DNA from: Candidatus Scalindua sp. SCAELEC01
GTDB lineage: Bacteria; Planctomycetota; Brocadiia; Brocadiales; Scalinduaceae
DNA: 39,038 nucleotides
Reading direction: 5' to 3'
Assembly (NCBI GenBank): GCA_004282745.1
Contig: SHMT01000009.1
Location: 1 to 39,038 of the forward strand
Positions 14,918-31,857 of this stretch are shown piece after piece; within the stretch, counting starts at the first letter, position 1; each line of letters opens with the position of its first letter. The translations under genes and the position numbers were made by a program. The notes under the pieces were generated by a model. That model had not been told where the DNA came from. It worked only from the letters and a program-made list of their open reading frames with translations, and searched no databases.

Positions 14918-14923
14918 AAGGAG
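14918..14923 (+). promoter_or_regulatory. Ribosome binding site deciding the protease start
   Basis: AAGGAG lies 7 nt before GTG 14931, but only 1 nt before ATG 14925. The spacing favours the GTG, which is followed at once by a basic n-region and a hydrophobic signal. Confidence 0.65.
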
Positions 14924-14930
14924 AATGTTT

Positions 14931-16499
14931 GTGAGTAAAGTAACAAAAAGGATAGAGAGAAGAAGACTGTTGTATATTTTATTATTTGGACCCATTTTGT
15001 TATTTACGCTTGCAAACAATGTGTCTGCCAATGAGCCGGTTTTTGATTGTCAAGCTCCTCACCATAACAGTGATACGTCTTCACTTTCTCAACCTGAAAA
15101 CACCGCGCCGACAGTATCCATCGTCCGCGTTTCGGGTAACGATTGCTGGACAATTAACCCATTCATTTCTGGATTTTCCCTCCTTGAACAGAAAACCTCA
15201 GTCACGTATGGCCTCGATGAAGACAGAGACGGAATAGCCAATTTCCCGACCCTGCCGGTCAGGGGGGCTGTAATCATCCCGGTATTCCTTGTAGATTGGA
15301 GCGACTTCGATCCGGCGATTGACGAGAGTAATCACAACAACCCAAACAGTGTCTATCACGGTTACCAGAAAAAGAGCCCCACTGAACTCAGCACCTTTCT
15401 CAACGGACCTCACGGACCTGCAAGCTATTTCCGTGAGGTCTCAGGCGGACAGTTATCTATCACCTTTGAGGTATTTCCCTGGATGGTCAGCGACAATATG
15501 ACCTATCTCAGCGATAAAGAACCTAACTACTATTTTTATGATTCTCAATTGGAGGAGTGGTGCGTAAAAAAAAGAGAGTATGCATTGGATGTCCTGCGTT
15601 CGGCAGTTGTTGACTTAGGTGTCAACCTCTCAGATTATGATGCCGACAATAATGCGGTCCTCGATGGATTCGTTATCGTCTATGAAGGTCAAGCGGGAAA
15701 ACTGGCAGGAGAGAACCTGTCATGGACTAATTACGCCTACAACGTTAAAACAGAGAGACCATACCTGCATAACGTTGCTTCCCTTGTCGATTCGACGGAT
15801 CCAAACTTCGAGACATTTGCCGCCCAACCAATCCTCTTCAGCCGCTATAACAACATTTCAGAACAGTGGGGGCCTAACGACCCAGGTAAATTCACACACG
15901 TAGGGACTTGGGTACACGAAATCGGCCATCTCCTTCTCGGATACAGAGATTATTATCATAAACCGAATGATCTTGGAGACTACGCCTTCAGCGCCCACAG
16001 CGGAGATCCAAATCCCTACCACCCTGCTGCAATGGAAAAATGGCTTTTTGTCCATTGGATAGAGCCTGTGACAGTCGAAACCAGCGGGACCTTCACGTTA
16101 ACCAACCACCATCTCACGAAGAGCCAGACCTACGACCCACACTCTACCTACCTATACAAGGTCCCCATTGAAGGTGATCCGCTCCATTTTCTCACGATCG
16201 AAAACCGCTACTACCTTCCTGAAAACCGGGGAGGGAGTAGATTCAATGAAAAACAGCCTGGATCATCTCCTGAGAGCGGCCTGGTAATATTCGAGATCAA
16301 CCGGCACACCTCCACATCTCAACAGATTCGCAGGCTCATACCTGAGCGCGTCCAGGAGTTGCCACACCAGTCAAGAGGCGCCTTTCAATCTGGCGATCTG
16401 TTTGTCTATAGCTCAGAAAATTTTCATTTGAAGGTGTCTGATGTGTCAGTACCTGACGAACAGGTCTCATTTACCCTGGAAGTATCAAATGTATATTAG
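14931..16499 (+). CDS. Secreted M6-like zinc metalloprotease
   Basis: The 522-aa product starts at a GTG placed by an AAGGAG box. A signal peptide (RRRLLYILLFGPILLFTLANN, cut near VSANE) is followed by a domain typical of M6/immune-inhibitor-A peptidases. It contains RGAVIIPVFLVDWSDF, a FREVSGGQLSI segment, and the zinc motif HEIGHLLLGYRDYY with His329, Glu330 and His333. DADNNAVLDGF (237-247) looks like a calcium loop. The C-terminal third is beta-rich (SGTFTLTNH, FHLKVSDVSVPDEQVSF), as in this family. It probably degrades extracellular protein; the target is unknown. It is flanked on both sides by family B repeats and is not in an operon. Confidence 0.85.
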   Translation: MSKVTKRIERRRLLYILLFGPILLFTLANNVSANEPVFDCQAPHHNSDTSSLSQPENTAPTVSIVRVSGNDCWTINPFISGFSLLEQKTSVTYGLDEDRDGIANFPTLPVRGAVIIPVFLVDWSDFDPAIDESNHNNPNSVYHGYQKKSPTELSTFLNGPHGPASYFREVSGGQLSITFEVFPWMVSDNMTYLSDKEPNYYFYDSQLEEWCVKKREYALDVLRSAVVDLGVNLSDYDADNNAVLDGFVIVYEGQAGKLAGENLSWTNYAYNVKTERPYLHNVASLVDSTDPNFETFAAQPILFSRYNNISEQWGPNDPGKFTHVGTWVHEIGHLLLGYRDYYHKPNDLGDYAFSAHSGDPNPYHPAAMEKWLFVHWIEPVTVETSGTFTLTNHHLTKSQTYDPHSTYLYKVPIEGDPLHFLTIENRYYLPENRGGSRFNEKQPGSSPESGLVIFEINRHTSTSQQIRRLIPERVQELPHQSRGAFQSGDLFVYSSENFHLKVSDVSVPDEQVSFTLEVSNVY

Positions 16500-16530
16500 G
16501 GAACGCGGTTTTCACCACAACTTCTCGATA

Positions 16531-16643
16531 TATACTAAAACCAATTTGGTTTTAGATTTTTCTAAAAACCAAAGCTTGGTTGCAGTTATACTCGCTCCGT
16601 TTTAACTCGGATTTTATCCGAAAACCATTATGAGATGAGTATA
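16531..16643 (+). repeat. Family B TA-bounded repeat, copy 2
   Basis: TATACTAAAACCAATTTGG at the left; GGATTTTATCCGAAAACC and GATGAGTATA at the right. It measures 113 bp, close to the 112-bp copy at 20944-21055 in the opposite orientation. It lies 31 bp past the protease stop. A second left end (TATACTAAAATCGATTTGG) begins 2 bp later and is cut off. Confidence 0.65.
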
Positions 16644-16683
16644 TATACTAAAATCGATTTGGTTTTCGGGTTAAGTCAGTAGC

Positions 16684-16862
16684 GTCCGGTTAGGTTTTTG
16701 CGTATTTAATTTATTGCCCCAAAACTTGTCATTCCCGCATGTTTCCCGCTTTAAGCGTGCGGGAACAAGCTTTAGCGGGAATCTATGATGAAACGAGTCT
16801 CTGGATACCGATAAAGGCGTTCGGGTATGACGAAAGCCGCCTAAGCAAAAACCTAACCGGAC
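16684..16862 (+). mobile_element. 179-bp inverted-repeat element, family C
   Basis: Perfect 18-bp terminal inverted repeats GTCCGGTTAGGTTTTTGC (16684-16701 and 16845-16862). The interior has a nested TTCCCGC/GCGGGAA palindrome resembling intergenic repeats common in many genomes. There is no coding capacity. Flanking duplications are not evident. A non-autonomous transposon is the most economical reading. Confidence 0.75.
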
Positions 16863-16876
16863 AATGATGATTAATA

Positions 16877-17068
16877 TCAACATTTAAGTTTACTTGATGT
16901 AATTGCAAGCATTCCTGACACATGTTCTCCCCTTGCAATTTTATCGTTTACCGGCTTAAGGCTGTCCTTACATACTCCGCATGAACATAAATGGATACTC
17001 TGGGCATTTGCATTAATTTGAATTGATAGGCATTGTCGTACGAGGAATCCAATCATAAAATGTCTCAT
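16877..17068 (-). CDS. Possible gene remnant with CxCxxC motif (63 aa)
   Basis: The frame ends HLCSCGVCKDSLKPVNDKI and then ARGEHVSGMLAITSSKLKC. The second half reads like a genuine protein C-terminus with a CxCxxC metal-type motif. The first 20 residues overlap the end of the neighbouring lipoprotein gene in another frame and are probably spurious. I do not recognise a family. Most likely it is the tail of a gene interrupted by the arrival of the lipoprotein gene; it could also be chance. Confidence 0.25.
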   Translation of the reverse strand: MRHFMIGFLVRQCLSIQINANAQSIHLCSCGVCKDSLKPVNDKIARGEHVSGMLAITSSKLKC

Positions 17069-18116
17069 CTTTCATAAAAAATGGACCGTTGTGGAACGCC
17101 TCAGGCAGAGTGACTAGGATATAAGCTAAAACATTGCGATGCTCACCTTTTGATAAATCAAAGCTTCCCTTTTTACATGGAATCCAGGTGTGTTCAGGAT
17201 CAAAGAAAGAAAAAACAAATTTTCGAGCCTTGGTAACGAATTCCGATTCTTTTTGCCCTGATAGTATGTGAGCAATTCCAATTTCTGCAATTATATCAGG
17301 TGTGGCGTGTTTAAAAATTTCAGTCTGGTGTTCTTTAAAAAAATCGAGAATCCATCGATGTTGCGTTGCATTTACATAGCGTTGGTAATAGCCACTATCG
17401 GCAATAATGATATGGGTCAATCCATAAAGTTGCGTTTTAAATTTTGAAATTTGGGTTTTATCAAAGGTCTCAAAAGCACTTTTGAAAGCCTCGTTGTATT
17501 CAACTGAAAGATCTACAATACCTAAGTCTCGAAGCCAATATACCCAGTTGGCGGTTTGAGCACTCCAAGCGAGAATTATTTTTTTAGTGAGCAGAGGGGT
17601 TCTGAAATCAACCTCTTTCATTCTCTCTAAAAGTTTATTATGATGTTTTGATGCGAGTCCCATTTCTTGCAAAACTGCCATCGGGTAAACGACACGAGTT
17701 AGATAAAAGTAAAAATCAGCATTGGGCGTAGCAAGAATTTCTTTTTGCAGTGAATCTTTATAAGATGATCCTTGCAAGTCGTAAATATCCTTGAGATACG
17801 TATTAATATATTGTCGATTATCTAAGTGAACAAATGCGTCCTGCAACTTATCGGCAAGAGTAAAAACCCGGAACAAGGATGGAGATAGGTAAGCACGATC
17901 TCCAGTGAGACGGTACATACGGATCCCATAGTGCCCTTGCTTGGTGGGTGATAATGTAGAAAAATTGGCATCTAACTTTGCTTTTATTTTTTCAGCAGCG
18001 AGATCATACCCATTGCTAGCTTTGGGTGATTCAACATAGCGATCTGACAGGGGATTCGCAGTTGGAGTACACCCAATAATTAGTACTGCTGCAAAACACA
18101 AAATTTTCGTTCTCAT
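17013..18116 (-). CDS. DUF3541-like lipoprotein
   Basis: The 367-aa protein starts MRTKILCFAAVLIIGC, a lipoprotein signal with LIIGC. An AAGGG box 9 nt upstream selects ATG 18116 over the in-frame TTG at 18125. The mature protein is almost all helical: LSPTKQGHYGIRMYRLTGD, an AVLQEMGLASKHHNKLLERM segment and IAEIGIAHILSGQKE. The arrangement resembles DUF3541 proteins, known mainly from gammaproteobacteria such as Vibrio and Legionella; that match is from memory and moderate. Function is unknown. AT-rich composition and its isolated position fit recent acquisition. Confidence 0.65.
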   Translation of the reverse strand: MRTKILCFAAVLIIGCTPTANPLSDRYVESPKASNGYDLAAEKIKAKLDANFSTLSPTKQGHYGIRMYRLTGDRAYLSPSLFRVFTLADKLQDAFVHLDNRQYINTYLKDIYDLQGSSYKDSLQKEILATPNADFYFYLTRVVYPMAVLQEMGLASKHHNKLLERMKEVDFRTPLLTKKIILAWSAQTANWVYWLRDLGIVDLSVEYNEAFKSAFETFDKTQISKFKTQLYGLTHIIIADSGYYQRYVNATQHRWILDFFKEHQTEIFKHATPDIIAEIGIAHILSGQKESEFVTKARKFVFSFFDPEHTWIPCKKGSFDLSKGEHRNVLAYILVTLPEAFHNGPFFMKDETFYDWIPRTTMPINSN

Positions 18117-18137
18117 TGTTTGCAACCCTTAAGCCTT

Positions 18138-18160
18138 ACTCTTCCCATGATGGGAAGAGT
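18138..18160. promoter_or_regulatory. 10-bp palindrome just upstream of the lipoprotein gene
   Basis: ACTCTTCCCA-TGA-TGGGAAGAGT is a perfect inverted repeat. It sits 6 bp upstream of the Shine-Dalgarno box of the DUF3541-like gene and 265 bp downstream of the Lcl-domain gene stop. No T-run follows on either strand, so an operator or leader hairpin is as likely as a terminator. Confidence 0.45.
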
Positions 18161-18424
18161 GCAAAAGCAGAATTTCTAAAGATGCTGGAATTAAACACCA
18201 CGAGAGATATGACGCAATAACAGACATACCTGTATGAGAAATACACGAGGAATTTGTGCTGATGGATCATGGCAGGAGTTGCACAACAACTTAACTCTTG
18301 TAACGTGCGGGAGCACAGGGAGGATTTCACCCTGCACCCCCGCCATATTGCTACCATCTCACATCAGGGACAAATAGTAAATATGGTCATCAGACGCGAG
18401 ATCTCCTTGAAACGGTGCCACATA

Positions 18425-20500
18425 TCAGTCACGTATACACCAGACATCATTGGCGCTACCCTTAAGATCATCGAACAGAAAACCCGTGTCGAAACCCACG
18501 GCCCATGCGGAAGTTGTATCGTTGGCAATGGTAGTAGACGTCCAATAGCTCGACACCGGTACATTGGTGAATGGATGACCACTGGGTAGAGCCGGGCCGA
18601 ACATACTCCGATCGATAAGACTCAAAAGCTCATTTAAGTTAGCCAATCGCCATTGTCCCGCGATCGAACCGTCATTAGGCCCTTCTGTTAAGGAACCGTC
18701 ACCAACCAATTCGTTGCATGATGCCAAGGCCGTCAACCAATCTTGTTGACCAAATAAGTCAGCAGCCTTTGTCCAGATAATGCCCGTTAAATTGTCCGTT
18801 ACCGTTGCATCTCCGTTATCCTTAAAACGTCGACTGGGCCAGGCAACCCCCTTTTTGAGATCGCCGTCAGAACCCGATGGTGAAGGATTTAACGGGAAGG
18901 TTGAGGTCTGTCCGGTTTTCGCAACCGGAGAGGGCGGGGGAGCCTGATACACATAATCGGCAAAATCCCATGTATTACTAATTCTCCACCACAATCTTAC
19001 ATAAATGGTGTTCCCATTTACGGGGATTCCATGAACAACATACGTTGTTGTTTCTAATTCGTTTTTCTTGAGAATATCTTTACTACCCGGGCCTGTCGTT
19101 CCCACATGGAGCCGGTACAGATCTTCCTCAGTCCCGGCATTCCATTCGAAGGAGACAGACGCTGTCGTTAATGTGGAGTCAGGTACCGGACTTTTCATCG
19201 TTGGGGTATCTGCTGGGTCAACAGTCACCGTCACCGTTGCCTCGTTAGAGGTTGCACCAAGATTGTCATCCACCGTATACCTGAATGCATCAATACCTAA
19301 GTAACCTGCATAAGGGACATAATCAACCGTTCCATCCGAATTAGCGAAAGCCGTACCATTAATCGGATCACTTATTATGAAGACAGTAGCAGGATCAACC
19401 GTGCCATCAGGGTCGCTGTCGCCGGCTATGACATCTATAGTAACCGGGACATCCACAACCGTTGTTACTGTGTCGTCATCCGCAATAGGCGCCTGATTAC
19501 CACCGCTCTGTGTCCGGTAAGTATAATCACTGTTATACCATGTATCTCCATTCCGCCACCACAACCGCACATAAACGGTTTCACCCGTTAGGGGTATTCC
19601 TGTTACAACATACGATGTTGTTGTGATTTCATTTTTCGTTAAGAAATTTTTACTCCCCCGACCCGTTGTTCCTATATGGAGCCGGTAGAGATCTTCCACG
19701 GTTCCCACATCCCATTCGAAAGATACTGTTGTTGTCGTTAATAGTGAGCCCGGCGCCGGGTTTGTTATCTCAGGAGCAGGACTCCAAGTCCCTGACAGTC
19801 TATACTTTGTACTCTGGTGAAATGCTCTACTGTAGCCATAGACCTTGATGAAATAGATACCTGGCGATGCACTATATGTAATTCTTTCATTACCGCAAGA
19901 GCCATTATAAGAACCAGCAACTCGTGCCGCATTTGAATAAAGTTCTATCTCGTAATCGAGACAAGGGTCTTTCGGGGGTCTTAATGAAAGATCGACAACC
20001 CCTGTACTACCAACATTTATCTTATACCAGTCAACATCTGTATCACTACAGATCAACGCCTTATAATTACGCCCTGACGTTAGCGGACCATAGGATCGAG
20101 ATCTGGAATTATTTGGTTCGTAAGCATCGGTACAACTCCGCGTCGGGTAATCATAGTCAGTTCTCTTCCACGCACCACCAACTCTCCACCACAGTCGAAC
20201 ATAAACCGTATCGCCTGTCAGGGGTATCCCCGTTACACGAAACGATGTCGTTGCAAGTTCGTTTTTCCTTACAATGTCTTTACTCCCCGGACCGGTTGTT
20301 CCTACATGGAGCCGGTAGAGATCCTCCTCGGTTCCGGCATCCCATTCGAACATAACAGTCGCGGTTGTTAAATCAGAACCCGGCACCGGGCTTGTCATCG
20401 CTGGTTCTGCTGCCCTGGCTACCGTAACAGTCGAAGATAATCCAAAGAGTAATAATAAACCCACTGCAATCATGAGAAACCTTGTTAATTTTTTTTCCAT
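18425..20500 (-). CDS. Secreted modular surface protein with C-terminal Lcl (DUF1566) domain
   Basis: The 691-aa protein starts at ATG 20500, preceded by AAGGA; the in-frame TTG at 20518 is poorer. A signal peptide (1-31) is followed by a beta-sandwich module at 35-118, repeated at 245-328 and 433-518. It has the fixed core FEWDAGTEEDLYRLHVGTTG, then GSKD and VYVRLWWR. Between them lie a pre-peptidase C-terminal-like domain (122-240, DAYEPNNS ... DVDWYKINV) and a cadherin/Big_9-like domain (334-430, NQAPIADDDTV ... VDYVPYAGY). Residues 551-691 form an Lcl/DUF1566 domain (RFKDNGDATVTDNLTGIIW ... QWRLANLNELLSL ... YWTSTT). Such proteins act outside the cell in adhesion or carbohydrate binding; the ligand is unknown. 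Confidence 0.88.
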   Translation of the reverse strand: MEKKLTRFLMIAVGLLLLFGLSSTVTVARAAEPAMTSPVPGSDLTTATVMFEWDAGTEEDLYRLHVGTTGPGSKDIVRKNELATTSFRVTGIPLTGDTVYVRLWWRVGGAWKRTDYDYPTRSCTDAYEPNNSRSRSYGPLTSGRNYKALICSDTDVDWYKINVGSTGVVDLSLRPPKDPCLDYEIELYSNAARVAGSYNGSCGNERITYSASPGIYFIKVYGYSRAFHQSTKYRLSGTWSPAPEITNPAPGSLLTTTTVSFEWDVGTVEDLYRLHIGTTGRGSKNFLTKNEITTTSYVVTGIPLTGETVYVRLWWRNGDTWYNSDYTYRTQSGGNQAPIADDDTVTTVVDVPVTIDVIAGDSDPDGTVDPATVFIISDPINGTAFANSDGTVDYVPYAGYLGIDAFRYTVDDNLGATSNEATVTVTVDPADTPTMKSPVPDSTLTTASVSFEWNAGTEEDLYRLHVGTTGPGSKDILKKNELETTTYVVHGIPVNGNTIYVRLWWRISNTWDFADYVYQAPPPSPVAKTGQTSTFPLNPSPSGSDGDLKKGVAWPSRRFKDNGDATVTDNLTGIIWTKAADLFGQQDWLTALASCNELVGDGSLTEGPNDGSIAGQWRLANLNELLSLIDRSMFGPALPSGHPFTNVPVSSYWTSTTIANDTTSAWAVGFDTGFLFDDLKGSANDVWCIRD
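18947..20398 (-). repeat. Three intragenic repeats encoding an 84-aa module
   Basis: Copies at 20398-20147, 19768-19517 and 19204-18947 are similar at DNA as well as protein level. The shared phrases include TGGAGCCGGTA(G/C)AGATCTTC on the plus strand. The near identity of copies 1 and 3 suggests fairly recent duplication or gene conversion. Confidence 0.75.
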
Positions 20501-20540
20501 TTCCTCTATCCTTATCAAATTTTAAATAGGTAGTTTTGCT

Positions 20541-20672
20541 AGAAAACAAATCTTGGTTGTCTGCCCAACATGTCGTTCAGGCCGGCCGTTATCCCCAGAC
20601 AGAAACCGTCGAGGACTTTACTCGTTCAAGTCTATCTCGGGTTTAATCGAAAACCTTTACCAGATGAGTATA
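20541..20672 (+). repeat. Family B repeat, degenerate copy 3
   Basis: Contains AAAACAAATCTTGG, the CATGTCGTTCAGG...CCCCAGACAGAAA segment shared with 21390-21432, GAGGACTTTACTCG and the terminal CAGATGAGTATA. The left TATACT boundary is lost. Confidence 0.5.
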
Positions 20673-20943
20673 TTACGGTGCTAAGTTCATACCAATAACC
20701 CCCTCCCCCGAAAACAAAAGCCCGTTTGAGAATAATCTAAACTGATAAAATTTTTTTGAAACGCTTCAGGAATAATAAAGCATAATGATATAAGACTTGC
20801 TATCGGCACTGACTGCGGATAGCCAAGTAATGGTTGGCGTTAATAATATAGCAAATACTCTTCTTCACACTCATTCTACACCTAAGACTTTATTGATTTA
20901 TTAGCAATATTTCCTCAAGGATAATAAGTATTTGCTGAAATAC

Positions 20944-21055
20944 TATACTCATCTCATAATGGTTTTCGGATAAAATCCGAGATAAAATTGAGCGAGTATA
21001 CCTTCACCAAGATTTGGTTTCCGATAAAGCCGAAAACCAAATCGGTTTTAGTATA
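20944..21055 (-). repeat. Family B TA-bounded repeat, copy 4
   Basis: TATACTCATCTCATAATGG at one end and ATCGGTTTTAGTATA at the other, 112 bp. This is the cleanest copy, with both TA boundaries and both internal palindromes. Confidence 0.65.
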
Positions 21056-21188
21056 TATGAAGTTTCTTTGCCAATTAGAAAGAAAATTTGACTTGGTTAA
21101 TTATTAATTATCTATACACTAAAACGTTTATTTGTCAACAGAATAAACTATGACAAAGTAGGACAATTTAAACCATTCTCGTTATAAG

Positions 21189-21206
21189 GACCCAGGAAAG
21201 AATAAT
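21189..21206 (+). mobile_element. Solo terminus of family A MITE
   Basis: GACCCAGGAAAGAATAA follows TAAG (21185-21188), exactly as at intact copies, but the rest of the element is missing. Confidence 0.5.
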
Positions 21207-21281
21207 ATGTATCAGTGCAAACGAAGTGAATGGAGAGAAATGCCTATTTTCAGGTATTACCAAGAGAAGCGTGGTTTCTTG

Positions 21282-21500
21282 TATACTAAAACCGATTTGG
21301 TTTTCGCTTTTACCCGTCCCCGCCAGAATGAGTATCTTGTTGGTGATCGGATGACAGGCCGGGCAGGCTGGAAACCAAATCTGGTTACCTGCCCGACATG
21401 TCGTTCAGGCGGGCAGTTATCCCCGGACAGAAAACACCGAGGACTTTACTCGCTCAATTGATCTCGGATCTTATCCGAAAACCATCATGCGATGAGTATA
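21282..21500 (+). repeat. Family B repeat, long copy 5
   Basis: TATACTAAAACCGATTTGG at 21282 and GATGAGTATA at 21500 bound a 219-bp copy. It is about 107 bp longer than copy 4 because of a GC-rich palindromic segment (GGCCGGGCAGG ... CCTGCCCGACATG). Confidence 0.65.
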
Positions 21501-21680
21501 TACCCAACACGAACTGGTTTTAGGTTTTCAGAACCCGATTTCACCAGAAATTTCGCCTTTTCTCAATCACAAAATCCTCGCCTTAGTAACACTAAGGCTC
21601 TGGTTTTGTTCAATCGAAAAAGCAAACTTTCAAGCAAACTCCGGCCCAGAAATCCCTAAAATCAATTCGTGATGGGTATA
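21499..21680. mobile_element. 182-bp inverted-repeat element, family D
   Basis: TATACCCAACACGAACTGG at the left matches the complement of the right end (TATACCCATCACGAATTGA), and both run on into TTTTAGG. Its left TATA is shared with the end of the adjoining family B copy. Its right end lies within the last codons of the sigma-54 regulator remnant. Confidence 0.65.
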
Positions 21681-22620
21681 TCACTGGTTATTTGAATATA
21701 TTTTTTAACGGTGCGTTGATCAAGCTCGGTTTTTCTCGCGACCTCCTCGTATGTCCCGCAGCGTTGATAGAGAAGTGTGCAATACGCCGGCACTATCTCC
21801 TGTGCGTTGAGGGTCCCCGCATCGATGCCATGATGAAGACGGTCCTCTAGACCTGTAGGTGTATTACATACATCTCCACGGTAACTGTTTGTGAGGAGGA
21901 TACGGCGTACGGCCTGTTCCAGTTCTCGAATATTTCCCGGCTAGGGATAGTCGCTTGGGAGCTCCTTTCAAGAACAGCGAGAATGGATCTTTGCAAATCG
22001 GGAGTGGGCGTTTCGGTAATTTGACCCAGGGTATGGCCCATTAATGTTTTCAATGTATCAGCTTCCTCTTTTATCTGTTGGCGAAGAGTGGGGACTAAAA
22101 TCACATCCGAGCAGAGCCGATAAAAGAAATCATCATGAATATTCTCCTGTTTCCGTAGCTCATCCAGGGGTCTGTTGGTAGCCGCTATTACCCTTCCATG
22201 AAAACGGATATTCTGATGACCGCCTACTACCTGAAACGTACGCTCTTGAAGGGCCTTAAGCAGCTTGATCTGCACCGGTATTGAGATTTCACCTATTTCG
22301 TCAAGGAAGATGGCGCCATGGGGTCTGCAACGGGCAAATATTCCCTGGTGCTCTTCTACCGCGCCAGTAAAGGCCCCTTTTTTGTGTCCAAAAAGTTCCG
22401 ACTCTATTATGGACTCAGGAAACTGAGAGAGGTTGATTGAGATGAATTTGCTGGTAAAGCTTTCGGCAAAAGAGCCTGTTTTTTCATCGAAAGGGATATA
22501 CCCTGAACGTCCGATAGCCGCAGCCGCTGTCCCCTTTCCAGTCCCGGTCTCACCCAAAATAAAGGTGGAAAAATCCTCCATCCGGTTTCTTCTGGATACT
22601 TTTTTAAAAATAGGTAACAC
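21681..22620 (-). pseudogene. Sigma-54-dependent AAA+ regulator, disrupted
   Basis: The open part (257 aa from GTG 22620) carries Walker A GETGTGKG, the sigma-54 contact loop GHKKGAFTGA and Walker B GAIFLDEIGE. The sensor region ENIHDDFFYRLCSDVI and arginine-finger area follow. After VLER the frame slips by one base near 21960. In the correct frame the text reads ELPSDYP-stop-PGNIRELEQAVRR, where the stop TAG replaces the Trp TGG of the invariant YPWPGN. A helix-turn-helix tail, YEEVARKTELDQRTVKKYI, is still legible down to about 21690. No sensor domain remains upstream and a family D element meets the 3' end. Non-functional. Confidence 0.85.
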
Positions 22621-22811
22621 CCAATGATAGATCTAGATAACAAAAACAGGATAGTTGTGGCATATCATATGCGGATACAAATATTAAGTGTGATAACTGA
22701 ATATTTAATATCAATTTATTTTACTATTTTCTACAATTGGGAAGCAATATGACCAAAGTGCCTGAAATGAGGCCTGTCAGATTCCTACCCACAAACAGAC
22801 AGGAAAAGAGA

Positions 22812-23942
22812 ATGAAAATATACAATTCGGTTAAAAATAAAACAGTACAAGTCCGGAACAGGTTAACAAGAATTAATGACATGGAACCGCTGAGCCTTTT
22901 GTCAATACTCGTAATTTTCTTATTGGATATATTTATTCTGGTAAATTTATTTACCGGTTTGAATAACCACGCAAGTCAGCTGGTTAAACCTCATGAATAC
23001 ATACCCTATATCTGCAGAGATATTATTATTGACGAAAACTGGGTAAAAGAGAGGAAGATTTCAAGGATATCTTCCCTGGTATTAAGAGAGCATCGGTATT
23101 ACTACTACAGAGAAAGAGACCAAAAAGAGAAACATGAAATATGCAAGATTATTATCGAGCAGATTGAACTCCTTAAAAAGGACAAAAACCTAATTGCGCT
23201 CTGTAGAAAAAGAGATGAATTATCAAAAAGATATAACAGCTATGATGACTACCAAAAGCGGATAAGCGATAAAGCCAAAACAATCTTAAGCGAAAGAGAT
23301 AACGTTGAGAGAGACATCAACCGACTCGACTCGGTTAATGAATTCTGGGAAATAATTGAAAGACAGTCTCTCTTATCAGAACAGCTAAAAAATGATCTCA
23401 GAAGATTCAACTTTCTCCACCCAATAAAAAGGTTGTTTTACGAACTTCTCTTCCTTGTTCCGATCTTACTGGTGGTGCTTTTCTGGAATAATCGGTGTCT
23501 CAAGCGTGAGAAATGGCTACAAGCTTTTGTCTCATCTCATCTCCTTGTGGTAACAATTATTCCCCTCTTTTACAATATATGTCACGCTGCCTTTGACATC
23601 ATACCAAAGAACATTATTAAGGAGTTTATCCATTTTCTTGAGTCTATACATTTAATTGCTATCTGGCACTATGCATTAATTGTCGTTGCCGTAATTATCA
23701 CCTTTTTTCTTATCTATATCATCCAGAAGAAGGTGTTTACAAAGAGTCGAATGTTAAGGCAACGTTTATTAAGAAAACAGTGCATGAGCTGTGGCAGGAA
23801 GATCGAACATGACGGAGACTTTTGCCCCTTTTGTGGTAAGGAGACAAAAATAGTTTGCAAGCACTGTAATAAAATAACGCCTAAAGGATTTGATTATTGT
23901 ATTCAGTGTGGTGAAGTGATGGATAAAACTATTGTACAATAA
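22812..23942 (+). CDS. Membrane protein with two C-terminal zinc ribbons
   Basis: Using ATG 22812 (AGGA 7 nt upstream) the protein has 376 aa; ATG 22749 would add 21 residues. Transmembrane helices lie at about 28-48, 208-226, 238-258 and 284-304. Between the first two is a roughly 150-residue charged, coiled-coil-like region rich in Lys, Arg and Glu. The tail has two zinc ribbons: Cys324/327/338/341 (CMSCG ... CPFCG) and Cys349/352/363/366 (CKHCN ... CIQCG), a double zinc-ribbon arrangement. No specific family was recognised. It is intact although flanked on both sides by pseudogenes. Confidence 0.75.
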   Translation: MKIYNSVKNKTVQVRNRLTRINDMEPLSLLSILVIFLLDIFILVNLFTGLNNHASQLVKPHEYIPYICRDIIIDENWVKERKISRISSLVLREHRYYYYRERDQKEKHEICKIIIEQIELLKKDKNLIALCRKRDELSKRYNSYDDYQKRISDKAKTILSERDNVERDINRLDSVNEFWEIIERQSLLSEQLKNDLRRFNFLHPIKRLFYELLFLVPILLVVLFWNNRCLKREKWLQAFVSSHLLVVTIIPLFYNICHAAFDIIPKNIIKEFIHFLESIHLIAIWHYALIVVAVIITFFLIYIIQKKVFTKSRMLRQRLLRKQCMSCGRKIEHDGDFCPFCGKETKIVCKHCNKITPKGFDYCIQCGEVMDKTIVQ

Positions 23943-23964
23943 AATGAAACTTATACTCTAGGAA

Positions 23965-25450
23965 GTAGTTTGGTTTTTTGCCAATATCTTACATTGTAGT
24001 CCCGCGCTCATATTTATCATTTTCGGTGTCCTCTCTTTTTTTGTAATCGCCTATATCTGCACGCTTCTCCCTGAGTTTCTTTTAAGGTTTCTGGCCTATA
24101 TTATTACTCACACTATTTACAGAATCAAGATCATTGGTAGAGAGAGCATTCCTCAGGAGGGGGGAGCGCTCCTTGTCTGTAACCACGTCTCTTACAATGA
24201 TGAAGGTCTTGTACTTGCCTGTACTCAGCGGTTTATTCGTTTTATGATGCTGCGGGAGATCGCCAACAACAAACTGTTAAGGCCCTTTTGGATGGAGAAC
24301 TTGTCTGCATCTTTGCCGAGGGGGGAATTACCCGGACCGGCCACATAATGGTGTTCAAGAGGGGTTTTGAAAGGATTATGAAAAATATTGATGTCCCCAT
24401 CATACCGGTAAATCTGGATCGTGTCTGGGGGCAGCATCTTCAGCTTTGAAGGGGGAAAGTTTTTCGGGAAAGTGCCATCAAGATCGCCTTACCCGATAAC
24501 GGTCTCATTCGGCAAACACATGCCGTCCAGTGCATCGGCCTATCAGGTAAGGAGGGCAGTCTCCGAACTTGGTTCGGAAGCTTTTAAATATCGGCTTGGC
24601 AAGAGAGATTCATTACCCTATCGCTTTTACCGTCAGGCGATAAAGAGGCCATTTAGAAGATGCGTGACGGATTCGAGTGGTACAATACTGACTTATGCGA
24701 AAGCCTGTATGGGGGCTGTACCCCTGTTTCACTCATTCGGGTACACGGGGGCCTTGTGGTATCCCCTAACTACGGGTATGGGCGTTGTCTACCATAATAA
24801 TCCCCTTGATTTCAAGATCACGGGTGAAATGGTTGAGAGACATAAAGCGACACTATTAATGACAATGCCTACATTTCTCATGGGACAGATACGTAAATGT
24901 ACACCGGAACCGTTCAGCTCTTTACGATACGTTGTTGTCGGCGCTGAGAAACTACAAGAGAGGATTACTAAGGCCTTTATAAGAAAATTTAACAGAGGGC
25001 CATTAGAGGGGTATGGCTGCACGGAATTATCTCCTGTCGTATCCGTTAATGTACCAGATGTGATTGATAAAGAGATAAGGCAGATGGGCAACAAACCAGG
25101 CACTGTTGGACGACCTTTAACCCGGAATAACAGCCAGGATAGTCAATCCCGATACGTTTGAAGAGCTGCAGGCCGGAGAGGAAGGCCTTCTCCTCATCAA
25201 GGGTCAAAATGTTATGCTGGGATATCTGGGTGGCAAAGAGAGTACGCGGAAGGTCATGCACCATGATTGGTACATTACGGGTGATATTGACCTTGAGAAA
25301 CTGTGCAAAGAGATGTCAGAGAGTGAACTACCAAAACTGTGGCTTCCTAAAAAAAGCTCCTACTATCAGGTCTACAAAATTCCCGTATTGGGCAGTGGCA
25401 TACTTGACTCACAGAGGATTAAATCCGTGCCCCATTTTTTTACATCCGTC
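23965..25450 (+). pseudogene. Aas-type acyltransferase/acyl-ACP synthetase, shattered
   Basis: The remains are collinear with the 2-acylglycerophosphoethanolamine acyltransferase/acyl-ACP synthetase fusion. First comes the last transporter-like helix (IFIIFGVLSFFVIAYI). A PlsC-like domain follows with LLVCNHVSYNDEG (HxxxxD) and CIFAEGGITRTG. The AMP-ligase part has PLFHSFGYTGALWYP, VVVGAEKLQERI, LEGYGCTELSPVVSVNVPD and WYITGDI, and the typical tail LPKLWLPKKSSYYQ. Damage includes an internal deletion after REIANNK (~24275), a one-base insertion near 24430, a large deletion after GTILTYAKA (~24700), a frameshift near 25125 and a deletion after TGDI (~25290). The N-terminal transporter domain is gone. 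It would have recycled lysophospholipid. Confidence 0.85.
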
Positions 25451-25460
25451 TGATTGTGAA

Positions 25461-25737
25461 CTCTTTAATCTTTTTATTTACCCACATTATGTGATACCAA
25501 ACCATTACCATTTACTATTGTGCACATTGAAAGGCAATCTTGTATATTTTATGAGACACACAAATAGCGTATCCATGCAAAGACATAATAGGAAATAGAA
25601 AATGGATGGTCTCCTTTTTCGTGGTTGATATAAAGCCCTTTCGGTTCAAGAGGCATATTTGACTGGTTTCGTCAGCCATATCCAACTGAATTCCCTAAAT
25701 GCCAAAATGGTGGATAAATTGAGTCGTTATACAGGGA
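25461..25737 (+). pseudogene. REP-associated (Y1/HUH) transposase remnant
   Basis: In one frame the text reads YVIPNHYHLLLCTLKGNL, then MRHTNSVSMQRHNRK, a stop (TAG 25596-25598), DGLLFRG, a stop (TGA 25626-25628) and YKALSVQEAYLTGFVSHIQ followed by LNSLNAKMV. This follows the order MPNHYHLLL ... NRK.G.DG.LFRGRYKA ... YIHLNPVRAKMV of REP-associated tyrosine transposases. The HYH metal-binding motif is kept. The N-terminus is lost. It lies just upstream of the FkbK-like gene. Confidence 0.7.
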
Positions 25738-25816
25738 GATTTTTCAGAAAAGAATGCTGGATTGAAATTTTTAGCATTAATGTTCATGAATAAATTAGCG
25801 AAAATATATAATAGCT

Positions 25817-26668
25817 ATGAAGAAAAAAACCGTTGCCGTAATAGGAGCTGGTACTATTGGAGCTGATGTGGCCTTAGTTCTTTCTCTTAACAACTACTCT
25901 GTTTTGCTTAAGGATCTTTCCAAAGTTATACTCGACAAAGCGGAAAAGAGCATCAGAGATAGTTACAGATTCACAAAAATGATGAGAAAATCAGACCCTA
26001 TGCCCTCCCTGAATGATGTATTAAACAGAATAGAACTTACTACAGATTATGAGGGCTTCCAAGAAACGGATTTTGTAATAGAAAATATCACTGAAGACTA
26101 TGAGGCAAAAAAGAATGTCTATTTAGAGCTGAAAAAGATGTGTCGAAAAAACACGATTTACGGTGTGAACACCAGCTGTATTTCAATAACCAAAATCGCT
26201 GCACTTATGCTGGTTCCTGAAAACGTCATCGGAACACATTTTATGAATCCCGTTCCTTTATCTAAATTAGTGGAAGTAGTAATGGGATACCACACATCAG
26301 AAGACACTATAGAGAAAACCAGACATCTTATCCAAACTCTTCAAAAGACCTGCATTGTTGTTAACGACTTGCCGGGTTTTGTAACCAACCGGGTAATGAT
26401 GCTCACCGTTAATGAAAGTATATGGTTGGTTCACGATCAAGTTGCTGTAGCTAAAGATGTTGATATGATTTTTAAGTTGGGATTTGGACACAAAATGGGC
26501 CCGCTTGCCACAGCAGATCTTATCGGCCTAGACACGATTCTCAACTCCTTATCTGTACTTTATGAAAACTACAATGATCCAAAGTATAGACCCTGTCCTC
26601 TTTTGCGAAAAATGGTAGAAGCAGGAATTTTAGGAAAAAAGTCCGGTAGAGGATTCTACAACTATTGA
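25817..26668 (+). CDS. fkbK: FkbK-like 3-hydroxyacyl-CoA dehydrogenase-family oxidoreductase
   Basis: The 283-aa protein is a full-length 3-hydroxybutyryl-CoA dehydrogenase-family member. The NAD-binding GAGTIG is at 10-15, then ENITEDYEAKK, NTSCIS (Ser120) and catalytic His141 in GTHFMNPVPLSKLVEV. NDLPGFVTNRVMM and KMGPLATADLIGLD belong to the C-terminal domain. By itself it could be a fatty-acid or butyrate enzyme. Its 4-nt overlap (TTGA) with an FkbH-like gene, followed by ACP and acyl-CoA dehydrogenase genes, points to the FkbK role: oxidising the C3 hydroxyl of glyceryl-ACP. A TATAAT-like string lies 4 nt before the ATG; no Shine-Dalgarno box is clear. Confidence 0.85.
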   Translation: MKKKTVAVIGAGTIGADVALVLSLNNYSVLLKDLSKVILDKAEKSIRDSYRFTKMMRKSDPMPSLNDVLNRIELTTDYEGFQETDFVIENITEDYEAKKNVYLELKKMCRKNTIYGVNTSCISITKIAALMLVPENVIGTHFMNPVPLSKLVEVVMGYHTSEDTIEKTRHLIQTLQKTCIVVNDLPGFVTNRVMMLTVNESIWLVHDQVAVAKDVDMIFKLGFGHKMGPLATADLIGLDTILNSLSVLYENYNDPKYRPCPLLRKMVEAGILGKKSGRGFYNY

Positions 26669-27720
26669 ACGATAAAAAAACTCTCTTGAAAGAATTGAAA
26701 AAAATTAAATGCATTGTTTGGGATCTAGATAATACTCTGTGGGATGGCACTCTTCTCGAAGGAGACGACGTAAAGTTAAAAACTGGCGTTAGTGAGGTGA
26801 TTAAGACACTTGATCAACGAGGTATCCTCCATTCCATAGCCAGTAAAGGTAACTATAATGATGCTATGCTGAAGCTTAGTGAATTCCAACTTGATGATCT
26901 TTTTCTTTTCCCGGAAATAGGCTGGGACTCAAAATCTCAATCTATTGCCAAAATACAAAAGAACTTAAATATAGGCATGGATACGTTAATTTTTATAGAC
27001 GATCTATCCTTTGAGCTGGATGAAGTAAAGAGCGTACATCCCCAAGTAACTTGTATTAAGGCGTCACAATACTTGAATCTTCCATCCCATCATCTTTTGA
27101 ATCCGAAATTCATCACACGGGATTCAAGCAGAAGACGCTTAACGTACATCGAGGATCAGAAAAGGAGAGAAGAGGAAAGAGATTTCAAGGGACCTCGGAA
27201 GGAGTTCCTGGCATCTCTAGATATTCATATTCAAATCTCTGAAGCCAAGGATGATGATTTAAAAAGAGCTGAAGAGTTAACCGTAAGGACCAATCAGCTT
27301 AACGCAACAGGCAAGACATACAGCTATGATGAGCTGAAGCTGTTAATGGATTCGAAAAATCACAAGTTGCTCATATGCGAGATGAATGATAAGTATGGGG
27401 CTTATGGGAAAATAGGCCTTTCTGTAGTTGAAATTTTCAAAGATTATTTTTATATCAGACTTCTATTGGTATCCTGTAGGGTTATGTCAATAGGCGTTGG
27501 CACCGTTCTTTTATCTTATGTTATGCACGAAGCCAAAAAATTCGGAAAGAGGGTCAAAGCGGATTTCAGACACACCGGGAGAAACCGAATGATGTATATT
27601 ACATTTAAGTTTGCCAACTTTAAGGAAATTCTTGTAGACGAATCTGGTACAATAGTCCTGGAAAAGGATCTATCATCCATTCAAGAATATCCTTCATATA
27701 TAAATCTAACCATTAAGTGA
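26665..27720 (+). CDS. fkbH: FkbH-like glyceryl-ACP synthase (HAD plus GNAT-like)
   Basis: The 351-aa protein has the two-part FkbH build. The N-terminal HAD domain has VWDLDNTLWDGTL (Asp20, Asp22, Thr24), a SKGN motif (61-64) and IDDLSFELDEV. The C-terminal domain has RTNQLNATGKTYS and LVSCRVMSIGVG, with Cys272 in the family's SCR motif. Characterised members (FkbH, OzmB) take 1,3-bisphosphoglycerate, dephosphorylate it and load the glyceryl unit on an ACP. The start is TTG 26665, overlapping the FkbK stop as TTGA; no nearby ATG fits the family length. Together with its neighbours this strongly indicates a glyceryl-derived extender or building block. Confidence 0.9.
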   Translation: MNDKKTLLKELKKIKCIVWDLDNTLWDGTLLEGDDVKLKTGVSEVIKTLDQRGILHSIASKGNYNDAMLKLSEFQLDDLFLFPEIGWDSKSQSIAKIQKNLNIGMDTLIFIDDLSFELDEVKSVHPQVTCIKASQYLNLPSHHLLNPKFITRDSSRRRLTYIEDQKRREEERDFKGPRKEFLASLDIHIQISEAKDDDLKRAEELTVRTNQLNATGKTYSYDELKLLMDSKNHKLLICEMNDKYGAYGKIGLSVVEIFKDYFYIRLLLVSCRVMSIGVGTVLLSYVMHEAKKFGKRVKADFRHTGRNRMMYITFKFANFKEILVDESGTIVLEKDLSSIQEYPSYINLTIK

Positions 27721-27741
27721 ATTAAGCAGGAGAGTTGCCTA

Positions 27742-27987
27742 GTGGATGTATCTGAGAAAGTTCGAGCATTTGTACATGCCAATCTAATAGCATTTAGTGA
27801 TGATTTAATACTTAAAGATGATGACAATTTTTTTGAGTTGGGTTTTGTGGACTCTCCCTTTGCCATGCAACTGGTTTGCTTCGTTGAGGATACATTTAAC
27901 ATTTGTGTTACCGATGAAGACTTGGATTTATTAAATTTCAGCACGATTGCTCGTATCGTTCAATTTGTTAAAAGGAAAATATTATAA
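27742..27987 (+). CDS. fkbJ: Stand-alone acyl carrier protein, FkbJ-like
   Basis: The 81-aa acidic protein has the ACP fold pattern FFELGFVDSPFAMQLVCFVE. Ser38 is the predicted phosphopantetheine site. The usual DSL/NSL is here DSP, a substitution next to the modified serine, but the following AMQLV matches the FkbJ/ZmaD type better than fatty-acid AcpP. GTG start at 27742 with AGGAGAG 7 nt upstream. The stop overlaps the acyl-CoA dehydrogenase ATG (TAATG). It should carry the glyceryl unit made by FkbH. Confidence 0.9.
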   Translation: MDVSEKVRAFVHANLIAFSDDLILKDDDNFFELGFVDSPFAMQLVCFVEDTFNICVTDEDLDLLNFSTIARIVQFVKRKIL

Positions 27988-29135
27988 TGAGTAATGAATC
28001 CAGCCAGCAGATGGTTGTACGAGAAGCCAGGCTTTTTGCCGACGAAGTATTGCGGCCAAGGGCTGGGGATTTTGATAGAGAGGAGTTCCTCCCACGAGAC
28101 ATTATCGATGAATTGGCAAAAAGAAAGTATCTTTTGGCCAGTTTACCCGAAGCGGATGGAGGGTTGGGGCTGGATCCTGTATATTACGGTTTTTTGACGG
28201 AAGAGATCGGAAAAGCATGCTGTTCTACACGGGGACTGATTACGGTTCAGAGTTCGCTAATCGGAGAAACCCTGATGAGGTGGGGTAAAAAAGAGCAGAA
28301 AGCCAAATGGTTGTTGCCGCTGTCCAATGGAGAGAAAATTGGAGCCTTTGCACTCACCGAACCGGGAGTGGGAACCGATGCAAAAGGTGTTCAGACCTCT
28401 TATGTGAAAAGAGGGAAGGAATATGTACTCAACGGGACCAAGAAGTGGACTTCATTTGGTGAGCTAGCCGATTTTTTTATTGTCATTGCTGCATGCCGAA
28501 CGGAAATAACTGCCTTTATCGTTGAGAGGGACCGATCGGGAATCACGATTTCTCACCAGAAAGGCTTACTGGCAAATAGGGCATCTCACCTCTCCGAGAT
28601 TGAGTTTCAAAACGTGACCATTCCCGAAGAAAACATCATTGGCAAACCAGGAAGTGGGTTTACCTTTATAGCGAGCACAGCATTAGATCACGGAAGATAC
28701 AGTATTGCCTGGGCCGGTGTTGCCATTGCCCAGGAGGCCTTGGATTCCATGGCGAAATATGCCAGAGAGCGGAAGGCTTTTGGGCGTAAGATCGGCGAGT
28801 TCCAACTCATACAGATGATGATAGGAAATGCAGTGACCAAGACCCATGCGGCCAGGGCCTTATGCATTAAGGTGGGAGAGATGCGATCCAGGGGAGATAG
28901 TAATGCTACAATAGAGACCACGATTGCCAAATACTTTACTTCACAGATTGCCTGTGAAGTTACAACCGATGCGGTCCAGGTTCACGGTGGAAACGGTTGT
29001 TCAAACAACTATCCGGTTGAACGCCTGTTTCGCGAAGCAAAAGTTCTTGAAATTATTGAAGGAACATCTCAAATTCAGCAACTCATAATCGCAAAATATG
29101 GACTAAGGAAATATGGAAAAAGTAGTCATTATTAG
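27987..29135 (+). CDS. fkbI: FkbI-like acyl-CoA dehydrogenase
   Basis: The 382-aa flavoprotein has full acyl-CoA dehydrogenase architecture: [17 protein letters not shown] at the substrate loop, NGTKKWTS, the C-terminal helical domain with [15 protein letters not shown] and VQVHGGNG, and a catalytic Glu358 in [11 protein letters not shown]. In the methoxymalonyl/hydroxymalonyl-ACP pathway FkbI completes the oxidation of the C3 aldehyde to a carboxylate. The ATG overlaps the ACP stop by one base and AAGGA lies upstream, so the two are coupled. Without context it would be called a generic acyl-CoA dehydrogenase. Confidence 0.9.
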
Positions 29136-29203
29136 TTCGCTCCTTTATCAGAAGGTATCCTTGTCCTCCATTTTCGCGAGAAGATAAAAGACAAAAAACA
29201 CGG

Positions 29204-30133
29204 ATGATCACAATAGAGGATTTAGAAAAATATATCAAGCCATTACAAGAGGAAATTGACAAGATCAACCCCGATATTTGCGTCCAGTTTCCAATTTCGG
29301 TTTATATCGACAGTGTAAAATCCTATTTTCAAGTTCGTACCCATTCCTATTTTAGCTACAAACGGAGAAAAATATTTACAAAAATTAAAACCATTAATGG
29401 CTTTCATGCATTGGCTTTGTATCAGAAACTTGCGCTTGCATATTTCATGAAAGATTCTTTAGAACGCTTAAAACCAAAATCTTTACCGAAAGGAATTATT
29501 CTCGAAATACACTCTTGGTATCAAAGAGTTGTCGATGATTTCACCAGACAAGCAGATAGCTATTATGACTATTTGAAAATTGATTTTATATATGACGTAG
29601 GAGTGTGCTGCCTCAAGAGCCTGCCAATTGGCGGAGCCTGGTTCGTTCAGGTGCGCAGAATCGGTTTTCGACTGATTTTAGCATCAGGTATCCGTCAGTT
29701 AATAGAGCTATTGGGTTACCTAATTTTTAAAACAGGAGGCTTTAGGCATTACTGCGTAATCCATACCTACCAACGTTACTTACCTCGCTTTAATTGCCAA
29801 CAAATGAACTTGGCTTACCGGTTGATCGGTGAATTAATCAAGTATAATCCCAAAATAAAAGGTCTCTACAGGAGAAGTTGGTTCTTAAACCCAAACCTGG
29901 AAGCGATTAGCCCTAATCTTACCTATTTAAGAGAGATACCTCTGCAAAACGGTGCCACACTGTTTAAGGCTGGCTTAATCGAAGAAGATATCAAGTATTC
30001 TCTGGCATTTTCTCCACACCGACGGAAATTGTATGAAGAAGGTAAGTATTCACCCCTCTCCTATGCTTATATCTGGCCCAAAAATGAATTTCTTTTCTGG
30101 CTTAACAAAACCAATACCGAATTGTTAGGTTAA
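29204..30133 (+). CDS. Conserved protein of unknown function near the Fkb cassette
   Basis: The 309-aa protein lacks a signal peptide. It has a helical N-terminal half with a possible hydrophobic stretch at ~150-172 (SLPIGGAWFVQVRRIGF...). The conserved-looking C-terminal half includes HYCVIHTYQRYLPRFN, LYRRSWFLNPNLEAISPNL, TYLREIPLQNGATLF and SPLSYAYIWPKNEFLFWL. I recall unannotated proteobacterial proteins with this C-terminal pattern (HTYQP ... SWFYDP ... SPRLAYLRE), but no function. It starts 68 bp after fkbI on the same strand and may be cotranscribed, making it a candidate acceptor, transferase or tailoring protein of the glyceryl pathway. No Shine-Dalgarno box is evident. Confidence 0.75.
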   Translation: MITIEDLEKYIKPLQEEIDKINPDICVQFPISVYIDSVKSYFQVRTHSYFSYKRRKIFTKIKTINGFHALALYQKLALAYFMKDSLERLKPKSLPKGIILEIHSWYQRVVDDFTRQADSYYDYLKIDFIYDVGVCCLKSLPIGGAWFVQVRRIGFRLILASGIRQLIELLGYLIFKTGGFRHYCVIHTYQRYLPRFNCQQMNLAYRLIGELIKYNPKIKGLYRRSWFLNPNLEAISPNLTYLREIPLQNGATLFKAGLIEEDIKYSLAFSPHRRKLYEEGKYSPLSYAYIWPKNEFLFWLNKTNTELLG

Positions 30134-30566
30134 CATCTCTGTTGCTATATGCCTATTTTGTTTCAAGGCAAAGTGAATAGGGTAGAGAACAAGATATTCA
30201 CGTTAAGTTTTGTATGCGCAAAAAACTATTATCCGGTTAAATTTTAACAGGTAATTTCAGTTGAGGAAATTTTTTCTTACAATCGAACGTAAATTAAAAA
30301 TCTCCTTATCAAAAATACTTTATTTTCACTCTTCATTATTCTAGCATAAGAGCAATTAGCTAGCATTCGGATTCGTTTCTGGGAACGCGATACCTGAATG
30401 CCATTTTTATTTTTTCAATTTGCGACTCAATGAATGGTGTAACTTCTCTGCCAATGAGTAACACCGTCTATTAAGTTTACTACGTTGACTCCCAGAAATT
30501 GTGCTCCCAACAGCAGTAGACAAGGAATTTGATAATCGAGGATAGGATGTAAACTCGACCTTCGAA
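30134..30566. other. Gene-free gap before the radical SAM gene
   Basis: AT-rich DNA with many stops on both strands. No repeat of the families seen elsewhere, no clear hairpin and no small ORF with a ribosome binding site were found. In particular, no precursor-peptide candidate was recognised. Confidence 0.4.
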
Positions 30567-31601
30567 ATGGCAAAAATTTGGGTGGAGATGCGGTTCTGGT
30601 TTACCCTTACCGGAGCCGCGTTTGATTATCAAGGGTCTATTTGGACTGGTGAAATGGCTTCAATTCAGATTACAACACAAATCGGTTGCCGGAATTCCTG
30701 CGATTACTGCCCACAGGACCTGCTCATTGAAGCGAACCGGAAAACGGACGGGTCCTTGATAATGACTTTTGACACATTCAAAACCTGTGTCAAAAAAATT
30801 CCCCTTCAAGTTGCAATCTGGTTTGCGGGGATGTGCGAACCATGGTCTAACCCCAAATGCACAAAAATGCTGTTGTACGCACATGAGCAAGGACACGGAA
30901 TCGGGGTCTTCACGACTCTGGTCGGTATGTCGACTGCGGACCTCGATCTTCTTCAATTGGTCCCTTTTCAGTTCTTTCGGATACACCTTCCTTCGAAAAG
31001 TGGTATCGAGAGTATCAAAATCAGTGACAATTACCTACGTTGTCTGGGTAAGGTGATCTCCAACGGGATTCCCGTTACTTTCCATTGTCACGACCAGGTA
31101 GTTCCGGAAGTGGTCTCCATTCTCGATCAAAATGGGTATAGGGCAGAACTCCGTTCCCTCTATCGTAGGGCGGGAAACATCTCTGTCTCAGGTCGCCTCA
31201 AGGCGGGAAAGAGACGAGGTGCTATCGCCTGCCAACGGAGATCCCGTAGTAACGTGCTGCTACCGAATGGTGACGTATTACTCTGCTCAAACGACTATGG
31301 AATGAAACACACTCTTGGAAACCTGCTCGAAACCAGTTATGAATCTCTCTTTACCGGAAGCGAATTTCAAAAAATCCAGAGAGGCCAGACAGACGAATCA
31401 CTTGACGTTCTTTGTAGGTATTGTGACAATTTCGCGTACGACCTGGACGCTTACGCAAGTTTACAAAACTGGAGCTACCACATCGATCGTTTCCTGTACT
31501 ACCCGAGAAGAATTAGGAGTTGGGAAGACGCTCTTCAGTTGTTGGGGAAGGTGCGGTTCGTTGTCAGGAACGCCTCAAGAAGTATATTCAAAGGAAAATG
31601 A
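30567..31601 (+). CDS. Radical SAM enzyme with SPASM-like C-terminus
   Basis: The 344-aa protein carries the radical SAM cluster motif CRNSCDYC (Cys41, 45, 48) directly after the strand SIQITTQIG. Next comes the GMCEPWSNP glycine-rich/GEP-like region. Toward the C-terminus, NVLLPNGDVLLCSNDYGM and TLGNLLETSYESLF followed by CRYCDNF form a twitch/SPASM-like auxiliary cluster segment. This layout is typical of enzymes acting on peptides or of sugar/lipid maturases. The start is uncertain: ATG 30567 gives 344 aa; ATG 30654 would begin just before the first strand. No substrate can be assigned; proximity to the Fkb cassette is suggestive only. Confidence 0.82.
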   Translation: MAKIWVEMRFWFTLTGAAFDYQGSIWTGEMASIQITTQIGCRNSCDYCPQDLLIEANRKTDGSLIMTFDTFKTCVKKIPLQVAIWFAGMCEPWSNPKCTKMLLYAHEQGHGIGVFTTLVGMSTADLDLLQLVPFQFFRIHLPSKSGIESIKISDNYLRCLGKVISNGIPVTFHCHDQVVPEVVSILDQNGYRAELRSLYRRAGNISVSGRLKAGKRRGAIACQRRSRSNVLLPNGDVLLCSNDYGMKHTLGNLLETSYESLFTGSEFQKIQRGQTDESLDVLCRYCDNFAYDLDAYASLQNWSYHIDRFLYYPRRIRSWEDALQLLGKVRFVVRNASRSIFKGK

Positions 31602-31857
31602 GTAGATCAAGCATAGTTTATGGCAAGACCTTAAATAGTTCCATTAATGGGTCTCCCATTATCCCCCTTTACTTCCCCATTGCAATGTCATCCTGCTGGT
31701 AGAACTTGATATCTTGTCCACCTGTTGTTATGATAGGATAGAAACTTTAGCTCTGAATAACTGCCAATTTTCTTATCCTTATTTTCATCAACCCCATGAA
31801 AATACCTTATTATTTTCGCTATAATTTTCAATACGATCCATAACCTTAAACACCTCT

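Follow-up and report, generated by a model that had tools for sequence, protein, structure and literature searches.

A Candidatus Scalindua genome carries an intact four-gene cassette, fkbK-fkbH-acp-fkbI, which is best explained, with modest confidence, as an ordinary hydroxymalonyl-ACP cassette of the ZmaG/N/D/E kind that was acquired horizontally within a species-specific insert and is most likely stranded without a polyketide synthase (PKS). The window (the whole stretch of 39,038 nucleotides analysed) covers the first 39 kb of a contig of 146 kb. The bin, of 4.6 Mb in 104 contigs, is 98.6% complete with a reported contamination of 4.7%. The first-pass annotation, made from the letters of the window, had guessed at a planctomycete, and rightly so, as the host is a member of the Scalindua (anammox) family.

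The cassette occupies positions 25817–29135, with four intact frames, all on the + strand. The first gene, fkbK (25817–26668), encodes a 283-residue 3-hydroxyacyl-CoA-type dehydrogenase that matched Pfam 3HCDH_N (E = 1e-50) and 3HCDH (E = 8e-32), contains an HFMNP...LVEVV stretch and is 59–61% identical to the FkbK proteins of cassettes L032, L033 and L035. It is followed by fkbH (26665–27720), which starts at a TTG codon within a TTGA overlap with fkbK and encodes a 351-residue HAD-IIIC glyceryltransferase/phosphatase-like protein; this scored 247 bits against the FkbH domain of NCBIfam TIGR01686 (cut-off 147) and retains the DLDNTLW, IDD and SCRV motifs. After a 21-bp gap, the acp gene (27742–27987, GTG start) encodes a discrete acyl carrier protein (ACP) of 81 residues (PF00550, 28.5 bits, cut-off 20.8). 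Its phosphopantetheine-bearing Ser sits in a DSP motif, and alignment showed that it has the signature FAMQLV...DLD..NF in common with the cassette ACPs of relatives. The last gene, fkbI (27987–29135), starts in a TAATG overlap with acp and encodes a 382-residue acyl-ACP dehydrogenase with Pfam Acyl-CoA_dh N, M and C domains. It matched, among others, the solved FkbI structure 1r2j (E = 2e-41), and is 63% identical to an Aminicenantes cassette FkbI. Both dehydrogenases match their Pfam families over their full length, and we name them FkbK and FkbI, not generic beta-oxidation enzymes, because of the operon context and their matches to cassette copies elsewhere. All parts of an FkbK/H/J/I cassette are therefore present: an FkbH-type HAD-IIIC enzyme, an adjacent ACP with its Ser, and 3HCDH-type and acyl-CoA dehydrogenase-type enzymes. 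As this gene set recurs side by side in dozens of unrelated genomes, its arrangement is far beyond chance. The open reading frames and family matches confirmed the four genes, their order and the three junctions, as the first-pass annotation had described them.

By homology, the predicted product of the cassette is hydroxymalonyl-ACP, made by the zwittermicin/FK520 route; the enzyme identities and pathway proposed in the first-pass annotation are likewise borne out by family matches and homologous cassettes. FkbH would remove phosphate from 1,3-bisphosphoglycerate and load the glyceryl unit onto the ACP, FkbK would oxidise C3 of glyceryl-ACP to an aldehyde, and FkbI would oxidise this aldehyde to a carboxylate, giving hydroxymalonyl-ACP (PMC7489565, PMC4207774). 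Matching pathway enzymes are described for zwittermicin, tetromadurin and butyrolactol (PMC6395733, PMC7489565, PMC5355916). In most other bacteria the next step falls to a dedicated PKS acyltransferase, which takes the hydroxymalonyl-ACP, and such an acyltransferase is required for the known use of the unit (PMC4207774). The zwittermicin A enzymes ZmaN/ZmaD/ZmaG/ZmaE comprise the same four enzyme types, with no O-methyltransferase and hydroxymalonyl-ACP as the predicted product, but their genes lie in a PKS/NRPS cluster with a dedicated ZmaA-AT (PMC4207774), neither of which was found in our host. The FK520 genes fkbK-fkbH-fkbJ-fkbI (methoxymalonyl-ACP; M112949/M130554, PMC6395733) likewise form a minimal four-gene acyl-ACP extender module, whereas the cassette in the window has neither a PKS nor an adjoining FkbG O-methyltransferase. 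No methyltransferase open reading frame of any kind adjoins it at this locus, unlike a methoxymalonyl-ACP locus, which would hold FkbG. This absence is ordinary, since hydroxymalonyl users such as butyrolactol have no FkbG either (PMC5355916). A tetronate-type glycerate-utilisation operon was ruled out, as FkbK and FkbI are present and a FabH-like gene is absent from the window.

What could consume the product? We searched the host genome family by family for ketosynthase (KS), acyltransferase (AT) and condensation domains. Within the window, the domain search found no KS, AT, condensation or NRPS-type adenylation domain, and no PKS remnant. Across the 98.6% complete assembly there was no condensation domain, no type I AT and no type I KS, even as a fragment; the genome encodes five KS proteins, all stand-alone (415–435 residues), and one stand-alone AT. 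The earlier claim that no PKS or NRPS lies in the flanking 25 kb therefore holds, and extends across the assembled draft genome. A PKS or NRPS/PKS consumer, which belongs to the usual setting of the cassette and not to the cassette enzymes themselves, was thus not found in the host. Because the assembled genome has no such consumer, the cassette is most likely stranded; it may have been transferred without its PKS, or left behind after the PKS was lost.

The sole AT (L113:10569-11423, contig C44) resembles the discrete ATs of trans-AT PKSs, PksE, PksC and DisD (318–361 bits), and is far less FabD-like (the E. coli FAS FabD scored about 156 bits). It may serve as the host FabD; the core FAS cluster (L114, on contig C10), with plsX-like, fabH-like, ACP and FabF genes named from sequence starts and gene order, contained no AT match. 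Pairs of FabF genes on C19 (65–67 kb) and C18 (36–38 kb) adjoin radical SAM/B12 genes and amine-oxidase or flavin-oxidoreductase genes, neighbours that are likewise found in anammox FASII/ladderane-type clusters (PMC2649909). These pairs were rejected as consumers of the cassette product on account of this FASII/ladderane-type context and because the C19 FabF-type KS had strong matches in 17/17 genomes of the family, 16 of which lack the cassette. Elsewhere in the family, a first look returned 42 KS candidates in G004 and 31 in G007, compared to about 6–10 in other members, and these two genomes may be PKS-rich.

The host also encodes a second FkbH, in a 919-residue fusion with an ACP and a thioesterase (L009:3042-5801, contig C59). 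It lies among exopolysaccharide genes, a gene for an XrtA/PEP-CTERM-type amidotransferase, glycosyltransferase genes and FemAB-like genes, and FkbH matches similar to it occur in G004, G007 and G009. The fusion and its locus suggest that loading of the C3 unit outside a PKS may occur in this host; a search for FkbH in O-antigen gave no match among the papers covered. FkbH genes without FkbK and FkbI were seen in other genomes too. A divergent branch (about 35% identity), from the same order as the host, is found at L027:10086-11264 and L028:10052-11230, where the glycan-like clusters include genes for a DegT aminotransferase, a glycosyltransferase, a carbamoyltransferase and a SPASM protein but no FkbK or FkbI. 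In Desulfamplus, five loci (L056, L061, L070, L089 and L094) form a tight FkbH clade with no FkbK, ACP, FkbI or PKS detected nearby.

To place the cassette among its relatives, we used a sample of 86 FkbH loci (80 public loci, the window and loci of related genomes). PKS or NRPS genes lay within the fetched flanks of 58 of these. Forty complete cassettes had flanks of at least 9 kb on each side, and KS, condensation or adenylation domains were nearby in 36 of them; the exceptions were the window and three others (L039, L055 and L097), which have no PKS or NRPS within about 9–10 kb. Linkage was also seen close to the host. In the host's own family, G006, which has an FkbH identical to the one in a public Candidatus Scalindua record, contains two cassettes, L024 and L025, one adjoining type I PKS genes (KS-AT-DH-KR-ACP) and the other an NRPS with a thioesterase, with an Sfp-type PPTase nearby. 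These encode the same four enzymes as the window, but in the order K-ACP-I-H and on another branch of the tree, and directly beside PKS and NRPS genes. In the same phylum, the G195 cassette also adjoins PKS genes. PKS linkage in relatives, which was to mark the locus as an ordinary extender-unit cassette, was therefore found for this kind of cassette but not for the exact locus, as the tree shows that the relatives' cassettes are not orthologues. Given the linkage in 36 of the 40 cassettes, in G006 and in G195, the proposal in the first-pass annotation that the C3 unit has a use not described before is unsupported.

The nearest cassettes without PKS linkage are in Aminicenantes (L032 and L033). 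They share the K-H-ACP-I order, about 59–63% identity in K, H and I, and PKS-free fetched flanks with the window, but their genomes contain 16 and 37 PKS ketosynthase matches, mostly in giant frames, compared to none in the host. Likewise, the genome of an unlinked Spirochaetales cassette has a 2884-residue KS-bearing frame. The presence of these frames points to possible PKS partners in trans, and unlinked cassettes can act in this way; the galbonolide methoxymalonyl genes are reported to lie apart from the modular PKS, according to Karki 2010 as cited in PMC6395733. The search for conserved neighbours that might indicate another use returned no gene beyond the four common to the unlinked cassettes, and no conserved non-PKS partner gene.

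The cassette lies in an insert of ~17.7 kb (14112–31857) that is absent from the same-genus genome G001. The genes to its left (NDK-YqeY-PlsC-AKR-LON) and right (HrpA-SpoU) are collinear with contig C1 of G001, where the lon-like to hrpA spacing is 0.53 kb compared to 17.7 kb in the window. Directly upstream of the cassette is a decayed aas-like acyltransferase/AMP-ligase remnant (23950–25453, + strand), with PlsC-like and AMP-binding pieces in different frames and partial matches to PF00501 (AMP-binding) and PRK08633. Downstream, 68 bp after fkbI and on the same strand, is an open reading frame of 309 residues without a known family (29204–30133). It had no match in Pfam, NCBIfam, the PDB or a plasmid collection and, the host aside, no homologue in the 392 genomes of the phylum, and its single-sequence AlphaFold model, with a mean pLDDT of 36, was too poor to use. 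At the other end of the insert is a 344-residue radical SAM/SPASM protein (30567–31601, + strand; PF13186) with a CRNSCDYC motif, which, when used as a query, matched the window only among the cassette loci. That either protein is a partner of the cassette is unproven. The insert also contains dispersed direct and inverted repeats (TATACTCATCTCATAATGGTTTTCGGATAAAATCCGAG and others), at 14351–14475, 16528–16672, 20544–20674, 20944–21061 and 21276–21523, several of which have copies in G001. The GC content of the cassette (40.7% vs 42.9%) did not separate it clearly from the rest of the window, and its codon distances fell within the range of other short genes there.

In a tree of concatenated cassette proteins, the window grouped with cassettes from other phyla, mostly of K-H-ACP-I order (13 rows, 100/99 support), and apart from the K-ACP-I-H cassettes of its own family. 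A single clade of the four unlinked cassettes was neither upheld nor rejected (AU p = 0.25). This tree position, together with the absence of the insert from G001, favours horizontal gain by the host over loss in G001, a direction that would follow from parsimony and tree position. There was no clear sign of relaxed selection or decay. The branch leading to the cassette was not unusually long for its group. FkbH had nine changes at positions that are at least 93% conserved (9/100 conserved positions, rank 3 of 83), with N62G and R276I among those at near-invariant positions of the sample, and FkbK was changed at 5/84 conserved positions (rank 6 of 63). Deviation of the same degree was found in other members of the branch; the high ranks of these K-H-ACP-I relatives, too, come from the dominance of another clade in the sample.

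How probable, then, is each reading? The decayed gene directly upstream counts for a stranded cassette. Against it, the intact frames and kept motifs exceed what would be expected of a cassette that has long been useless, its branch is of ordinary length, and the window holds no PKS remnant. Next in probability, though we consider it unlikely, is that the cassette functions in trans with a PKS which the organism has but which the assembly or bin lacks. PKS repeats often break short-read bins, which counts in its favour, as do the KS-rich genomes of the nearest unlinked cassettes, the galbonolide precedent and the possible PKS richness of G004 and G007. However, not even a fragment of a type I KS or condensation domain appeared in 104 contigs of a 98.6% complete genome, and G001, of the same genus, lacks FkbH and shows nothing that would suggest PKS richness. 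That the contig or the cassette is a contaminant of the metagenome bin, as the reported figure of 4.7% might suggest, is highly improbable and largely refuted: the genes flanking the insert on either side are collinear with G001, whose HrpA is 84% identical, and the same contig bears a KS gene 90% identical to that of G001.

Somewhat less probable than a missed PKS is that the C3 unit has been repurposed, with hydroxymalonyl- or glyceryl-ACP passing to a lipid, glycan or small molecule, or to a FabF-type enzyme in place of malonyl-ACP. The intact operon in a genome without a PKS would fit this, as would the two downstream genes on the same strand, the FkbH-ACP-thioesterase fusion in the exopolysaccharide locus and the three other well-flanked cassettes without PKS or NRPS. 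Yet the unlinked cassettes have no further gene in common, the 309-residue frame has no detectable homologue and the radical SAM gene no counterpart at other cassette loci, and the L039 genome still holds a large KS-bearing frame. The C19 FabF-type gene is matched throughout the family, mostly in cassette-free genomes, and the dedicated acyltransferase that the known use of the unit needs (PMC4207774) is a further point against repurposing. Its more specific form, a PKS-free anammox pathway that hands the C3 unit to the FabF lipid system, to a glycan or to a product of the 309-residue and radical SAM proteins, is more doubtful still. The cassette is thus more likely a known kit, transferred or stranded, than a new pathway.

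A stranded cassette in this genome suggests that an extender-unit cassette can pass from one phylum to another complete and as a self-contained unit, and that it can end up in a genome without a visible polyketide synthase, which bears on how such clusters are assembled. An orphan cassette alone is therefore poor ground for inferring a new pathway. If a non-polyketide consumer were shown, however, a C3 acyl-ACP derived from glycolysis would have gained a new use in metabolism.
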